Shown: positions 55,275 to 62,928, counted from the stretch's first letter. The stretch is DNA of 64,000 nucleotides from Phycisphaerales bacterium (GCA_007693765.1 RECZ01000109.1:1-64000); one strand, 5' to 3'. The notes: generated by a model from the sequence alone, not told the origin. Numbers and translations are program-made.

Positions 55275-56222
55275 GTGAAGCACTCGGAGCCAGTCAAACC
55301 AGGATCCCGCCTCGCAGGGCACAACGTGCTCGCCCAGATCGGGCGTGGCGCCGCGTCCGTCATCTACCTCGTGCAAGACCCCAAATCCAAGCAGATCTGG
55401 GCCCTCAAGCACGTGGTCAAGAACGGGCCCAAGGACCAGCGATTCCTCGAGCAGGCCGAGCAGGAGGGCGCCGTCTCCGCCCGCCTCGACCACCCCGTCA
55501 TCCGGCGGATCGTCAAGATCACCCGCTCCCGCTCGCTCACGGGCGTCAAAGAGCTCTACATGCTCATGGAGTACGTCGACGGCGTCAGCGTCGACAAGCA
55601 CCCGCCCGAGACGTTCGAGGAATCGGTGGACATCTTCCGCCAGGTCGCCCGCGGCCTCGCCCACATGCACGCCAAGGGCTTCGTCCACGCGGACATGAAG
55701 CCCAACAACGTCGTCATCTGCGACGACGGCTCCGTCAAGGTGATCGACCTCGGCCAGTCGTGCGCCATCGGCGCCGTCAAGGAGCGCATCCAGGGCACCC
55801 CCGACTACATCGCCCCCGAGCAGGTGCATCTCCGCGCCATCACCCCCAAGACCGACATCTACAACCTCGGCGCGACCATGTACTGGGTGCTGACGCGCCA
55901 GAACATCCCCACCGCGATCCCCAAGGGCGACTCGCTCGTCAACAGCCTCGACGACCACCTGATCGAGAAGCCCAAGCCCATCAAAGAGCTCAACCCGCGC
56001 GTGCCCGACATGCTCGCCGATCTGATCATGCAGTCCGTCGCCATCGACCCCGATCAACGCCCGCCGGACATGGACTGGGTCGCCGACCGGCTGGACCTCA
56101 TCTACGGCAAGGCCGTCGCCGACCGCAAGCTGCGCGAAGGCAAGAAGAACGGCGACGCTGCGACCGCCAGGATCGAAGACGCCGCCCAGAAACCCGGCGA
56201 CGCGCTGGGGCAGGGCGCGTGA
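55275..56222 (+). CDS. Soluble Ser/Thr protein kinase
   Basis: The 315-residue protein is essentially one Hanks-type kinase domain. Motifs are a Gly loop IGRGAASVIYLV, the ATP lysine in WALKHVV, a catalytic loop HADMKPNNV (HxD kept, Arg replaced by Ala), DLG in place of DFG, and PDYIAPEQ. No membrane helix is seen, unlike the kinase at 40.2 kb. It starts at GTG 55275. TAGATA (55262-55267) ends 7 nt before it; a TACAAT at 55171-55176 is an alternative -10 with a leader of about 90 nt. A phosphatase-like gene follows after 19 nt. Confidence 0.9.
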   Translation: MKHSEPVKPGSRLAGHNVLAQIGRGAASVIYLVQDPKSKQIWALKHVVKNGPKDQRFLEQAEQEGAVSARLDHPVIRRIVKITRSRSLTGVKELYMLMEYVDGVSVDKHPPETFEESVDIFRQVARGLAHMHAKGFVHADMKPNNVVICDDGSVKVIDLGQSCAIGAVKERIQGTPDYIAPEQVHLRAITPKTDIYNLGATMYWVLTRQNIPTAIPKGDSLVNSLDDHLIEKPKPIKELNPRVPDMLADLIMQSVAIDPDQRPPDMDWVADRLDLIYGKAVADRKLREGKKNGDAATARIEDAAQKPGDALGQGA

Positions 56223-56241
56223 GCCCCCGGGCCGCCGCGCC

Positions 56242-57219
56242 GTGAGCCTCCCCCCCGTCGACCTCGCGAGCCCGGACGCCGTCGAACGCCTGTTCCTCGA
56301 CGCGGCGAGCGCCAACTTCGACGCCGCATGCCGCAACGGATCGGTGGACGAGATCAACGCCCCCGGCGTCCTCATCGCCACCGGCGACCTGCACGACAAC
56401 CCGATCCACTTCGCGCGCGTCCTCGAACTCGCCGCCCCCCCGGAAGCCCCCCCGGAATCACCCCCGGAAGCGCCCCCGGAAACATCCCCGCCGGGCGCAC
56501 CGCCTCAGGAAGCCCCGCCGACGCATGTCACGCTGCACGAGGTCATCCACTCCGGGCGGCTGATCAACGGCGTGGACCTCAGCCACCGCGCCCTCGCACG
56601 GGTCGCGCAGGCGAAACTGCACGCGCCGGAGCGCGTGCACACGCTGCTCGCCAACCACGAGCTCTCGCAGATCGTGGGCATGGGCGTGGTGAAGGACGGC
56701 GTGCGCATGAAGGACGCCTTCAACGAGGGCGTCGGGTACGTCTTCTCCGAGGAAGCCCCGCGCGTGCTGCGCGCCATCGAGGCGTTCATCCGCTCGATGC
56801 CGCTCGCGCTGCTCTGCAACCGGGGCGGGCCGGACTGCGTGCTCTGTGCGCACAGCCTGCCGGGCGCCGATCTCCTCGACCGCTTCGACCACACCGTCCT
56901 CGATCGTGCCCTCACGGAGGAGGACTACACGCCGCGCAAGGGCGCCGCGCACATCATGGTCTGGGGGCGCGGCCACCCGCCCGAGCACCTCGAAGCCCTC
57001 GCGCAGCGCTGGGGCGTGCGCCTGTTCCTGCTGGGGCACGAGAAGGCGGAGCAGGGCTGGCGATTCGTCGAGCCCAACGCGGTCGTCCTCAACAGCGACC
57101 ACGAGCACGGCGCCGCGTTGGAAATCGACCTCGGCGCCGTCCCCGAGTGCCCCCCGCCCGAGCCGCACGAGGGATCGGCGCGGGGGTGGAGGTTCCATAG
57201 ACTGACGCCGTCGGAGTAG
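56242..57219 (+). CDS. PPP-like metallophosphatase with repeat insertion
   Basis: The 325-residue protein shows a degenerate PPP/calcineurin order: ATGDLHDNPIHF (motif I), a possible motif II in INGVDLSHRAL, LLANHELSQ (like GNHE), CAHSLPG (like HGGLP), MVWGRGHPP, and LLGHEKAEQGW (late His). Between motifs I and II lies PPEAPPESPPEAPPETS, encoded by four perfect-phase 12-nt repeats (56437-56484). It starts at GTG 56242 just after the kinase gene. A kinase/phosphatase pair acting on common substrates is an attractive reading, but is inference. Confidence 0.8.
   Translation: MSLPPVDLASPDAVERLFLDAASANFDAACRNGSVDEINAPGVLIATGDLHDNPIHFARVLELAAPPEAPPESPPEAPPETSPPGAPPQEAPPTHVTLHEVIHSGRLINGVDLSHRALARVAQAKLHAPERVHTLLANHELSQIVGMGVVKDGVRMKDAFNEGVGYVFSEEAPRVLRAIEAFIRSMPLALLCNRGGPDCVLCAHSLPGADLLDRFDHTVLDRALTEEDYTPRKGAAHIMVWGRGHPPEHLEALAQRWGVRLFLLGHEKAEQGWRFVEPNAVVLNSDHEHGAALEIDLGAVPECPPPEPHEGSARGWRFHRLTPSE
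56437..56484 (+). repeat. CCCCCGGAA 12-nt tandem repeat in the phosphatase-like gene
   Basis: Four units CCCCCGGAANNN (GCC, TCA, GCG, ACA as the fourth codon) lie exactly in frame, read as PPEA-PPES-PPEA-PPET. Degraded units follow to about 56510. Confidence 0.8.
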
Positions 57220-58351: not shown

Positions 58352-59677
58352 ATGCCCCACGACCACACCACCATCACCGACTCGATCTTCTCCCTCCTCG
58401 ACACCGCCGACCCCGAGGCGGCGTCGATCCTGCGGGCCGAGGATGATCGGCAGTCCTCCACGATCGAGCTGATCGCCTCGGAGAACCACGTCTCGCCCGC
58501 CGTCATGCACGCGATGGGCACGTGCCTCACGAACAAGTACGCCGAGGGGTACCCCGGCGCCCGGTACTACGGCGGGTGCGAGCACCACGACCGCATCGAG
58601 CAGTTGGCGCGCGACCGGGCCAAGTCGCTCTTCAAGTGCGAGTTCGCCAACGTGCAGCCCCACTCGGGCGCCTCGGCCAACGCCGCGGCGTTCATGGCGC
58701 TCATGCAGCCCGGCGACACCTTCGCGGCGCTGGTGCTCAAGGACGGCGGGCACCTCTCGCACGGGATGAAGATCAACTTCTCCGGCGTGTTCTACAAGCC
58801 CGTCTTCTACCCCCTGCACGCCGACCCCGACCACGAACAGTTCGAGCGCATCGACTACGACAAGGCCCGCGAGGTCTGCCTCGAACACAGGCCCAAGCTG
58901 CTGCTGTGCGGCTACTCCGCGTACCCGCGCGAGATCGACTTCGCCCGCTTCCGCGCCATCGCCGACGAGTGCGGCGCGCTGCTCATGGCGGACATCGCCC
59001 ACATCGCGGGCCTCGTCGCGGCGGGGGTGCACGCCTCGCCCTTCCCGCACGCGCACATCGTCACCACGACCACGCACAAGACGCTGCGCGGGCCGCGCGG
59101 CGGGCTGATCCTCTGCAACGACGAGGAAATCGCCAAGAAGATCGACAAGTCCCTCTTCCCCGGCCTGCAGGGCGGCCCGCTCATGCACATCATCGGGGCC
59201 AAGGCGGTGGCCTTCGGCGAGGCGCTCATGCCCGAGTTCCGGGGCTACTCGCAGCGCGTCGTCGAGAACGCCAAGGCGCTCGCGGGCGCCCTCACCGAGC
59301 GGGGCTTCCGCATCACCACCGGCGGGACGGACAACCATCTGATGCTCGTGGACCTCCGCCCCTTCGACGCCGAGCTCACCGGCGCCGACGCTGAGCGCTG
59401 GCTCGAGGACGCGGGCATGGTCAGCAACAAGAACGCCATCCCCGGCGACCCCCGCCCGCCCAAGCACACCTCCGGCCTGCGCCTGGGCACGCCCGCGACC
59501 ACCACACGCGGCTTCGGGACCAAGGAGATGGAGATGGTCGCCGGCTGGATCGAACGCGTCCTGCGGGCTAAGGGCGATGCGCAGGAGGCGGGGCGCGTCC
59601 GCGAGGAGGTGCGCCTCCTGTGCGAGGCCTTCCCGCTGCCGGGGCACGAACACGCGGGCGCCCGCGCCGGCGTCTGA
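58352..59677 (+). CDS. glyA: Serine hydroxymethyltransferase
   Basis: GlyA interconverts serine and glycine with tetrahydrofolate, using PLP. The 441-residue protein has [36 protein letters not shown], the PLP lysine in [14 protein letters not shown], and a C-terminal [22 protein letters not shown] at 58301-58306 is a probable -10, giving a leader of about 40 nt. The partial gene at the window end belongs to the same one-carbon metabolism, but is 4 kb away. Confidence 0.97.
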
Positions 59678-59760: not shown

Positions 59761-62454
59761 ATGAAGAAACCGCCCGACTGGACCGAGGGCATGCACGCGG
59801 AGACGCCCCTCACCGAGACCGTCCGCGTCGGCCTCGACGCACGCCTGGACCGCGTCGTCGAGATGGCGCCCACGCGCGACGAGGGCGGGGATCTGGACGT
59901 GCGTCGTGTGCATCAACTCCGCGTCTCGACGCGACGTGCCGCGGCCACGCTGCGCGCGTTCAAGGCGTGCGTGAAGAAGGGCGTGCGCAAGGACCTCGAG
60001 GAGGCGCTGCGCGAGATCCGTCGCGCCGCCGGGCCCGCGCGCGAGGCGGATGTGCACGCGGAGTGGGTCGCCGCGCTCCGCGAGGGCGCCGCGAAGGAGC
60101 ACGCGCCGGCGCTGGCGTGGCTGGCGCAGCAGTTGGACGCGGAACGCGAGTCCTCGCGCGAGGTGCTCGCCGCGCTCGCCGAGGACGACCCCCGCGCGCG
60201 GCTCAAGAAGCTCCGGAAACGGGCCTTGGGCGCGATCCGCGAGCCGTCGTGGGCCGAGGGCGAACGCGTCACGCTGCTCGACGGCGCCAACCGGGCGTTG
60301 CTGCGCGCCGTCGACGCCGCCCGCGACGCCTCCGAGCAGGACCTGAGCGTGCTCGACAACCTGCACGAGCTGCGCATCCGCATGAAGCGGCTGCGGTACG
60401 CCCTCGAGACGTTCGCGCCCGCCCTGCCGGAGCGCGTGTTCGATGAGCTGTACCCGCGCGTCGAGGAGATCCAGGAGGCGCTGGGCGCGCTCAACGACGC
60501 CTACGAGCTGGCCGGGCGCGTCGAACGCTCGGCCGAGGCGCTCGAGCGCGCCGACGACGAAGCCCAGGCCACGCTCACGAGCATGCGGGCGTTGCACGAT
60601 CATTGCGCACAGGAGCGCGACCAGCGCGCGAGCGAGTTCGTCGAGTGGTGGCGCTCGCGCAACGGCGTAGCGCTGCTCGACGACCTCGAACGAACCGTCG
60701 TCGGGCCGCGCGAGTCGCCTGTAGACGACGCCGCGCCGCCGCGCCCCGCCGCGCCCGCGCCCGAGCCCAAGCCGTCGCGTCACGCCTCCAACGGCGCCGC
60801 CCACCACCCGGAGCCGACCAACCCGCGGCTCGCGGCGATCGACATCGGCACCAACACCATCCGCCTGATCATCGCCGAGATCGACGGCGAGGGCGGGTAC
60901 CGCGTGCTCGACGACGAGAAAGAGATCGCGCGGCTCGGGCAGGGCCTGAGCGAGGGCGGCGCGATGCTGCCCGAGGCCATGGAGCGCGCCGCGACGACGA
61001 TCGCCAGCATGATGCGCATCGCCGAGGGCTACGGCGCCCAGCGCATCCGCGCGGTCGGCACCGCGGTGCTGCGCAGCGCGACCAACCAGCGCGAGTTTCT
61101 CGGCCTCGTGCGCGAGCGCGCCGGGGTGGAGATCGACGTCATCAGCGCCGAGGAAGAGGCCCGCCTCAACTACGACAGCGCCGCCAAGGCCTTCGACGTC
61201 GAATCCCTGCCCACGGCGATCGTTGACATCGGCGGCGGCAGCACCGAGATCGTGCTCACCGCGGGCGGCCTCATCGAGCGCATCTACACCATCGACATCG
61301 GCGCGGTGCGCGTCACCGAGCGTTTCGGCGGCGCCGAGGAGGCCCCCGGCCCACGCTTCGACGAGATGCGCGACTGGGTCGACGCACGCCTCCACGACGA
61401 CATCGGCAAGCCACCCTTCGAGCCGCAGATGCTCATCGGCGCCGGCGGCACGTTCGAGGCGCTGGCCAAGATGGACATGCTCCGCAACGAGCCGGGCGCC
61501 ACCGCGGGCATGCCCAGCGTGGTCCGCGGCTACGACCTCGACCGCAACGCCGTCCGCAGCATCCTCGACTGGCTCCGCGCCATGACCCTCGCCGAGCGTC
61601 GTCGCGTGCCCGGCCTCAGCCCCCAGCGCGCGGACATCATCGTCGCAGGCGTCACGCTGGTCGACCGCGTCATGCGCGCGCTCGACGTCCGCCACATCCG
61701 CGTCCACGACGGCGGCATCCGCGACGGCCTGCTGCTGCGCATGGCCCGCGAGCTCGACCCGAAGAATTCGCGCGCCGGCAACGGCGCCGACGCCCGCGAC
61801 CCCATGCGCGCCGTCCGCCAGTTCGCCGCGTCGTGCAACTTCGACCGGCGCCACTGCGACCACGTCGCCGGCCTGGCGCTGCGGCTCTTCGATCAACTCA
61901 GCGCCCGCCTCCCCGAGAAGGCCCGGAAACGCCTCGACGACGAGGCCCGCCTCCTCCTGCACGCCGCCGGTGAACTGCACGACGTCGGCTACCACATCAA
62001 CTACGAGAAGCACCACCGGCACTCCTATCACCTGATCATGCACAGCGGCATGAGCGGCTTCACGCCGCGGCAGGTCGAGGTCATCGCCTGCGTCGCCCGC
62101 TACCACCGCGGCTCCAAGCCCAAAGACAGCCACGCCGAGTTCACCCGGCTGAGCGAATCCGACCAGTCCCTCGTGCGCACGCTCAGCGCCGTGCTGCGCG
62201 TCGCCGACGGCCTCGACCGCACCCACATGCAGAACGTGAGCGACCTGCGCGTACGCGTCGAGCCGGAGGCCCTGCACATCGTGCTGCACGCCCCCAAAGA
62301 CCCCTCCGTGGACATCTGGGGCGCCGAACGAAAATCAGCGCTCTTCGACGACGTCTTCGGGCTCAAGCCGGCCTTCGAGTGGCGCGGCGCCGTCGCCGCG
62401 GAGGCCGAGCCGCGCGCCGCGCACTCGGCGCAACCCGGCGCCGCACGCGGCTGA
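59761..62454 (+). CDS. CHAD domain fused to Ppx/GppA phosphatase and HD-like domain
   Basis: The 897-residue protein joins three parts. Residues 20-310 form a CHAD domain, a helical polyphosphate-binding fold with repeated basic/His motifs (VHQLRVSTRRAAATLRAFK and HELRIRMKRLRYALETF). After a Pro/Ala linker, residues 355-670 are Ppx/GppA: AAIDIGTNTIRLIIAEI, AVGTAVLRSATNQREFL, DIGGGSTEIVL and IRVHDGGIRDGLL. Residues 690-897 resemble the Ppx C-terminal HD domain (HCDHVAGLALRLFDQL and AAGELHDVGYHINYEKHHRH). It should hydrolyse polyphosphate or pppGpp, with CHAD holding the polymer. ATG 59761 fits the CHAD start. A Nudix gene follows by 33 nt. Confidence 0.92.
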   Translation: MKKPPDWTEGMHAETPLTETVRVGLDARLDRVVEMAPTRDEGGDLDVRRVHQLRVSTRRAAATLRAFKACVKKGVRKDLEEALREIRRAAGPAREADVHAEWVAALREGAAKEHAPALAWLAQQLDAERESSREVLAALAEDDPRARLKKLRKRALGAIREPSWAEGERVTLLDGANRALLRAVDAARDASEQDLSVLDNLHELRIRMKRLRYALETFAPALPERVFDELYPRVEEIQEALGALNDAYELAGRVERSAEALERADDEAQATLTSMRALHDHCAQERDQRASEFVEWWRSRNGVALLDDLERTVVGPRESPVDDAAPPRPAAPAPEPKPSRHASNGAAHHPEPTNPRLAAIDIGTNTIRLIIAEIDGEGGYRVLDDEKEIARLGQGLSEGGAMLPEAMERAATTIASMMRIAEGYGAQRIRAVGTAVLRSATNQREFLGLVRERAGVEIDVISAEEEARLNYDSAAKAFDVESLPTAIVDIGGGSTEIVLTAGGLIERIYTIDIGAVRVTERFGGAEEAPGPRFDEMRDWVDARLHDDIGKPPFEPQMLIGAGGTFEALAKMDMLRNEPGATAGMPSVVRGYDLDRNAVRSILDWLRAMTLAERRRVPGLSPQRADIIVAGVTLVDRVMRALDVRHIRVHDGGIRDGLLLRMARELDPKNSRAGNGADARDPMRAVRQFAASCNFDRRHCDHVAGLALRLFDQLSARLPEKARKRLDDEARLLLHAAGELHDVGYHINYEKHHRHSYHLIMHSGMSGFTPRQVEVIACVARYHRGSKPKDSHAEFTRLSESDQSLVRTLSAVLRVADGLDRTHMQNVSDLRVRVEPEALHIVLHAPKDPSVDIWGAERKSALFDDVFGLKPAFEWRGAVAAEAEPRAAHSAQPGAARG

Positions 62455-62487
62455 TGTCGGGGGCGCGATCGTGTCGATGATGCCCGC

Positions 62488-62928
62488 ATGTCCGACGCCG
62501 CCCCGATCCAGAGCACGCCCCAGGCCGGCGCGATCCCCTACCGCCTCACGCGCCGGGGCGCGTACGAGGTGCTCCTGATCACCACGAGCAACGGTCGCTG
62601 GCTGATCCCCAAGGGCGGCGTCGACGAGGGCGACACGCCCGAAGAGGCCGCCGTCATCGAGGTCTACGAGGAGGCGGGCGCTGTCGGCGTGATCGAGGGC
62701 GACGCCATCGGGTCGTTCTCGTACATAAAGCGCAACACGCCGCACACGGTCGCCGTCTTTCCGCTGCGGGTCCAGCGGGTGCTCTCGCGCTGGCAGGAGC
62801 AGGGCTTCCGCGAGCGCCGCTGGCTCGGCGTCGAGGGCGCCGCGACGCTCGTGGCGCTGCCCGAGATCGCGCGCATGATCCGCGACCTGCCCGGCCACGT
62901 GCGCGACCTCCGCGCCAACGCGGCCTGA
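62488..62928 (+). CDS. Nudix hydrolase (diphosphoinositol/Ap4A-like)
   Basis: The 146-residue protein has a Nudix box GGVDEGDTPEEAAVIEVYEE, followed by AGAVG. Compared with GX5EX7REUXEEXGU, the first Glu is Asp and the Arg of REU is Ile. The EE pair that binds metal is kept. The preceding GRWLIPKGG segment resembles diphosphoinositol/Ap4A hydrolases. Being next to the CHAD-Ppx gene suggests a phosphate-chain or dinucleotide polyphosphate substrate (inference). GATGAT (62476-62481) ends 6 nt before the ATG. Confidence 0.88.
   Translation: MSDAAPIQSTPQAGAIPYRLTRRGAYEVLLITTSNGRWLIPKGGVDEGDTPEEAAVIEVYEEAGAVGVIEGDAIGSFSYIKRNTPHTVAVFPLRVQRVLSRWQEQGFRERRWLGVEGAATLVALPEIARMIRDLPGHVRDLRANAA

Follow-up and report, generated by a model that had tools for sequence, protein, structure and literature searches.

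A CHAD Domain Joined to a Ppx/GppA Phosphatase in a Single Phycisphaerales Protein, a Probable Polyphosphate-Degrading Fusion

The Locus and Its Fusion Gene

The window examined here is a stretch of 64,000 nucleotides (nt) from a Phycisphaerales bacterium (GCA_007693765.1, RECZ01000109.1:1-64000), located on contig C34 of a 2.9 Mb genome that is 96% complete. Towards the end of the window, one gene was found to encode a CHAD domain, a Ppx/GppA phosphatase core, and an HD-like Ppx domain III. Its open frame (59761-62454, plus strand) is uninterrupted and encodes a protein of 897 amino acids (aa), and in an alignment the ATG at 59761 coincides with the starts in two relatives (L017 and L019). 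The Pfam matches of the window protein all lie above their cut-offs: CHAD at residues 40-253 (118.6 bits versus 25.6), Ppx-GppA at residues 371-662 (182.5 bits versus 27), and Ppx-GppA_III at residues 683-845 (97.6 bits versus 27.3).

59761..62454, plus strand: CHAD-Ppx/GppA-domain III fusion gene, 897 aa (single open frame, Pfam domains, start aligned with relatives, AlphaFold2 model)
59878..60519, plus strand: CHAD domain, Pfam residues 40-253 (PF05235; fold match to 6qva)
60709..60807, plus strand: Pro/Ala-rich linker predicted to be disordered, residues 317-349, about 33 residues (pLDDT <50 in the model)
60826..61746, plus strand: Ppx/GppA catalytic core, domains I-II, residues 356-662 (PF02541, TIGR03706; fold match)
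61156..61158, plus strand: catalytic glutamate E466 (aligned with Escherichia coli PPX E121 and Deinococcus E114)
61807..62295, plus strand: Ppx domain III, HD-like (PF21447; H698...H740-D741...D816 intact)

The first-pass annotation of this DNA had stated that CHAD domains are usually separate proteins, and that the one found here is fused to a full Ppx/GppA phosphatase with an HD-like C-terminus. Both statements were borne out: CHAD is normally stand-alone or joined to CYTH, and the three domains of the window protein share one frame. An assembly or frameshift artefact, or a chance open frame, was ruled out by the presence of an in-frame fusion, checked on the DNA, in 21 further genomes of the same family. 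The fusion is the sole CHAD protein, and also the sole Ppx/GppA protein, detected in its own genome.

An AlphaFold2 model, built with 90 window and locus sequences as input, had a mean predicted local distance difference test (pLDDT) score of 91.5 and a predicted template modelling (pTM) score of 0.64, a value at which the relative placement of the CHAD and Ppx parts is not fixed by the prediction. The helical CHAD region of the model extends to residue 314, just ahead of the linker; in relatives, the spacing between the CHAD and Ppx domain matches ranges from 64 to 141 residues. Among the Foldseek matches listed, no solved chain spans both parts.

Polyphosphate-Binding Features of the CHAD Domain

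In the Foldseek search, the CHAD part matched the Chlorobium CHAD-polyphosphate (polyP) complex 6qva with a template modelling (TM) score of 0.79. Mutation of residues H253, R256, R260, R296, R418, and Y419 of CtCHAD cuts polyP binding (PMC6537752), and all six were found by alignment to be kept in the fusion, as H51, R54, R58, R94, R212, and Y213, respectively. These polyP-contacting residues are conserved in all or nearly all of the fused and separate CHADs examined. By its PF05235 match, predicted fold, and polyP-contact residues, the domain qualifies as a CHAD domain of the phosin type. CHAD domains have been linked to polyP enzymes before: in ygiF, CHAD has a stimulating effect on tripolyphosphatase activity (PMC6537752), and the Streptomyces CHAD protein PptA was proposed to act as an accessory factor for PPX-like enzymes (PMC8003754).

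The Ppx Core and Domain III

The loss of the catalytic glutamate on alignment, named in the first-pass annotation as a finding that would speak against its reading, was not seen. E466 lines up with E121 of E. coli PPX as well as with the position mutated in the Deinococcus E114A structure; among the family members examined, fused or split, it never varies. The phosphate-binding loops are also kept (DxGTN at D361-N365, DxGGGS at D489-S494, and GxGGT at G560-T564), and the PF02541 match, the catalytic glutamate, and these loops together place the fusion, by sequence, in the Ppx/GppA phosphatase superfamily. Foldseek matched the Ppx part to PPX/GppA structures from Deinococcus, Helicobacter pylori, and E. 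coli, E. coli GppA among them. Scores against the narrower models lie below the curated cut-offs (148.8 versus 864 for PRK10854, and 242.1 versus 307 for TIGR03706); judged by sequence, the Ppx part is a distant homologue, not an orthologue, of the enterobacterial exopolyphosphatase.

The HD pattern of domain III is intact in the fusion and in 30 of the 35 Ppx sequences assigned to this family. Domain III of the window protein gave no match to PF01966, the general HD family, at an E-value of 0.01, PF21447 being the only family reported. An intact HD motif was considered as a possible mark of CHAD-linked Ppx proteins and was rejected, because Ppx proteins that have no CHAD in the vicinity show it too. 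One fused member (L028:5003-7198, from G013) has no domain III and stops at the end of the Ppx core.

Polyphosphate or pppGpp as Substrate

Ppx and GppA proteins share a fold, and the structure search matched both E. coli GppA and the H. pylori PPX/GppA protein; the fusion might on these grounds be a GppA-like phosphatase that acts on pppGpp in the stringent response, and the first-pass annotation had named pppGpp, beside polyphosphate, as a compound to assay. A role for pppGpp was not borne out. A RelA_SpoT synthetase domain was not detected in the genome of the fusion, nor in 28 of the 32 family genomes searched (its own included), by a search that was positive in 11 of 14 control genomes; the other four family genomes gave a match to the RelA_SpoT domain. 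The result agrees with the reported absence of RelA/SpoT homologue (RSH) proteins from bacteria of the Planctomycetes-Verrucomicrobia-Chlamydiae (PVC) group (PMC3153485), and together with it makes a pppGpp role unlikely. The score against the GppA equivalog model also lies below the cut-off (154.2 versus 624), and a GppA-like function is considered highly improbable. Polyphosphate is the likely substrate, as judged from sequence and gene content, with PPK1 found in each of the 17 fused genomes. In one relative (G022), the genes for PPK1, CHAD, and Ppx are contiguous (L035:2696-7508), and in another (G046), PPK1 is followed directly by CHAD (L230:4747-7862); these are gene rows for polyP synthesis and breakdown.

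Distribution of Fused, Adjacent, and Separate Forms

The packaging of CHAD and Ppx was surveyed in 61 genomes of the same Phycisphaerales family, a group of uncultured planctomycetes, one per genus. The fusion was found in 17, adjacent CHAD and Ppx genes in seven, and both genes at separate sites in six; five genomes have Ppx only, 11 have CHAD only, and 15 have neither. An order-wide search added six fused members, recognized by coverage, five of which were confirmed by sequence; all belong to the same family. No fusion was seen outside the family in 392 genomes across the phylum, other families of which carry a separate Ppx of roughly 550 aa. A CHAD gene is often its neighbour, with the order Ppx-CHAD in some families. 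Further afield, CHAD was present in 131 of 249 Pseudomonadota, 106 of 246 Actinomycetota, and 28 of 50 mixed genomes. Among the longest CHAD frames of these three sets, no in-frame fusion to a Ppx core was found, a result that a short Ppx-CHAD fusion could escape, and the possibility that the large frames hide Ppx fusions was rejected on this basis; CHAD frames of 500-600 aa, mostly of CYTH-CHAD size, were inspected only in part. Long open frames are misleading in such searches because of high G+C content.

The fusion thus appears, from these genomes, to be restricted to one lineage. No description of a CHAD-Ppx fusion was found in the literature searched; an earlier published mention may exist. 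What is new is the covalent arrangement of a known enzyme with a known polyP-binding domain, an accessory role of CHAD for PPX having already been proposed.

Split Pairs and Evolutionary History

In all nine adjacent pairs examined from Phycisphaerales (L032-L036, L196, and L197 from the family, and L055 and L135 from the order), the CHAD stop codon TGA and the Ppx start codon share 4 nt (NTGA), and Ppx is read in a different frame. Judged by sequence, it is the arrangement commonly seen in translationally coupled genes. Because the two parts are such tightly coupled neighbours in relatives, it is very probable that CHAD and Ppx operate together as a single machine for polyphosphate degradation.

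A tree of 42 Ppx domains, which has some long branches and many weak forks, revealed that fused and split states are interleaved, so that the state must have changed six times or more. The fused member of G053 groups with the overlapping pair of G009 (support 98/93), that of G049 with G018 and G032, in which the genes lie apart (100/98), and that of G002 with G010 and G012, which have no CHAD (100/100). A single fusion event without later change was rejected by an approximately unbiased (AU) test against one fused clade (p = 2.5e-44). The tree gives no direction of change, whether fusion or fission. The overlapping pair is probably the older state, because it is also found in a neighbouring family (f4).

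Proposed Mechanism

Taken together, the conserved features suggest that the fusion is probably a polyP exopolyphosphatase that carries its own polymer-holding domain; hydrolysis of polyP is a property that we infer from sequence. The CHAD domain would bind polyP chains or the surface of a granule, the flexible linker would hold the Ppx core near its substrate, and the core would take off terminal phosphates using E466 and a bound metal, with efficient release of phosphate from stored polyP as the outcome.

Several observations weigh against this reading. The C-terminal domain (subdomains III-IV) of Pseudomonas aeruginosa Ppx already confers a preference for long chains (PMC4631893), and CHAD may therefore add little. 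In an alignment judged by eye, conservation appears only partial for the secondary basic patches (R438/K441 and R385/K386/K389/K390) of CtCHAD, and the net charge of the CHAD domain of the fusion is not positive. PPK1 is not confined to the fused genomes: it is found in 54 of the 61 family genomes, and in 22 of the 26 that lack Ppx. Because most family genomes have PPK1, with or without Ppx, its co-occurrence with the fusion is weak on its own, and it was dropped as an uninformative test.

That docking or tethering is the main role of CHAD is judged about as likely as not. The first-pass annotation had suggested that the fusion could tether its substrate and make hydrolysis processive. On a processive reading, the chain would pass through the groove of CHAD to the active site of Ppx and remain bound throughout its degradation. 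Precedents exist for the idea: a polyP 9-mer runs through the pore of CtCHAD, and CHAD was speculated to render fused enzymes processive (Lorenzo-Orts 2019; PMC6537752), as an accessory role for PPX was also proposed (PMC8003754). The pore residues are kept in the CHAD of the fusion. However, the disordered linker of about 33 residues and the pTM of 0.64 mean that no fixed CHAD-Ppx channel is predicted, CHAD and Ppx are separate proteins in close relatives, and a preference for long chains can arise from the C-terminal domain of a PPX; processivity is thus regarded as rather doubtful. Going by the model, a flexible linker of this kind would be no less compatible with tethering, or with docking on granules, than with a rigid channel for processive degradation. 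Docking, or a raised local concentration, was rated above strict processivity in view of this flexibility and of the long-chain preference that the C-terminal domain already provides in P. aeruginosa Ppx.

Free-Standing Domain-III HD Proteins

In families f2 and f3 of the order, the gene after CHAD encodes a free-standing protein of some 210-260 aa, which has matches to both Ppx-GppA_III and HD and in which the HD pattern is intact. Five such genes lie directly after CHAD (PF21447 and HD):

L247:2640-3332: free-standing domain-III HD protein
L248:3043-3729: free-standing domain-III HD protein
L249:791-1444, minus strand: free-standing domain-III HD protein
L250:3210-3866: free-standing domain-III HD protein
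L251:1476-2108: free-standing domain-III HD protein

No Ppx core lies beside the CHAD-HD pairs of L247-L250, and the gene order in L251 is CHAD, HD, Ppx. A Chloroflexi protein (L070:5605-7197, minus strand) has an N-terminal HD domain that resembles Ppx domain III, recognized by a profile built here and not by Pfam, together with a C-terminal CHAD, and lies beside a full Ppx gene. Further free-standing domain-III-like HD proteins are found beside Ppx (L058:1581-2282, L063:4974-5615, and L076:3-1010), in lineages that include an ANME-1 archaeon. A free-standing HD partner of CHAD is apparently undescribed.

An activity of domain III in its own right was considered because the three modules occur in several packagings. 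Domain III would then itself be a metal-dependent hydrolase, with CHAD serving both it and the Ppx core. The prevalence of the intact H...HD...D pattern among Ppx sequences of the family, the CHAD-HD pairs without an adjoining Ppx core, and the Chloroflexi protein that joins an HD domain to CHAD are consistent with this proposal. However, Ppx proteins show the intact pattern whether or not a CHAD lies close by, and domain III of the window protein has no PF01966 match, unlike the free-standing homologues, which match both PF21447 and PF01966. Among constructs of P. aeruginosa Ppx, moreover, activity was found only in the full-length and N-terminal ones (PMC4631893). Two active sites are therefore thought distinctly unlikely, and it is at the same low level that CHAD, the Ppx core, and the domain-III HD protein might be interchangeable parts for polyP degradation (separate, coupled, or fused), with the HD module providing a second metal-dependent activity on polyP or a related phosphate compound.

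Neighbouring Genes

The genes on either side of the fusion are:

58352..59677, plus strand: glyA, serine hydroxymethyltransferase, upstream of the fusion with an 83-nt gap (PF00464; context only)
62488..62928, plus strand: DIPP/Ap4A-hydrolase-like Nudix gene with an altered Nudix box (PF00293; PDB matches DIPP1-3 and Ddp1)

Among the loci compared, glyA adjoins the fusion in one other genome alone, G042 (L019). No sigma-70-like site emerged from a promoter scan, which was uninformative on operon structure. Farther upstream, at 55275-57219, a Ser/Thr protein kinase gene and, shortly after it on the same strand, a weak match to calcineurin-like phosphoesterases, below the Pfam cut-off, may form a kinase-phosphatase pair.

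The Nudix gene (PF00293, 46.6 bits versus a cut-off of 21.1) starts 33 nt past the stop codon of the fusion, on the same strand, and its nearest matches are DIPP1-3, Ddp1, and diadenosine tetraphosphate (Ap4A) hydrolases. In its Nudix box (GX5EX7REUXEEXGU), the glutamate of GX5E is replaced by Asp and the arginine of REUXEE by Ile, and EXXEE is kept; a non-Arg residue recurs in six of the seven orthologues examined. A diphosphoinositol/Ap4A-like Nudix gene with a modified box close behind the fusion is, then, just as the first-pass annotation had described it. That annotation had also assigned the gene to a polyphosphate unit, and here the outcome was divided: the physical adjacency stands, and CHAD-Nudix neighbours were found in four Actinomycetota loci (L207, L208, L213, and L220, with a Ppx also close by in L213). 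However, the gene is absent from all 34 related CHAD-Ppx loci, including that of G042, which retains the glyA-fusion order, and the orthologues found in 11 of 60 relatives all lie away from CHAD-Ppx. A conserved Nudix partner of CHAD-Ppx was, for these reasons, rejected within the family. The adjacency might have some significance, but the arrangement is not conserved as a unit in this family.

If the fusion and the Nudix protein did form one polyP unit, the latter might act as a Ddp1/DIPP-like endopolyphosphatase that supplies new chain ends for Ppx. Nudix enzymes of the Ddp1 type are polyphosphatases (PMC6537752), and a ppk-pptA-Nudix operon, in which the CHAD gene adjoins the Nudix gene, was described in Streptomyces (PMC8003754). 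These precedents, along with the short gap and the close matches to DIPP and Ddp1, are set against the altered residues of the Nudix box and the isolation of the arrangement among relatives, and the proposal is considered unlikely.

Comparison with Known Systems and Significance

The fusion resembles E. coli Ppx and Deinococcus radiodurans PPX (8jgo-8jgr) in its Ppx core, catalytic glutamate, domain III and beyond, and fold. It differs from them in the added N-terminal CHAD domain and linker, and in the intact HD pattern of domain III, which reads HE in both. With ygiF and CtCHAD, representatives of the CHAD phosins and CYTH/TTM-CHAD proteins, it shares a CHAD domain with polyP-binding residues, and the CHAD of ygiF is likewise joined to a polyP-hydrolysing domain. 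In the fusion, however, the partner is the unrelated Ppx instead of TTM, and CHAD is N-terminal, whereas it is C-terminal in the CYTH/TTM-CHAD proteins. The Streptomyces ppk-pptA-SLI_4382 operon (PMC8003754) similarly places a CHAD protein, proposed as a PPX accessory factor, beside a Nudix gene, but CHAD is not fused to PPX there and ppk lies inside the operon, whereas PPK1 in the genome of the window is on a different contig from the fusion. In biomining archaea, chad and ppx genes also lie close together (PMC10892726), but as separate genes in a larger cluster that includes SixA.

A natural fusion of this kind provides direct evidence, at the genome level, for a partnership that has so far been only postulated between CHAD phosins and exopolyphosphatases. 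The existence of fused, coupled, and separate versions among close relatives means that the effect of tethering could be measured by comparing natural proteins. Since most of these bacteria apparently lack a (p)ppGpp synthetase, their Ppx would be open to study without a side role in pppGpp metabolism, and the free-standing domain-III HD proteins found beside CHAD offer a testable lead to the role of domain III in Ppx.

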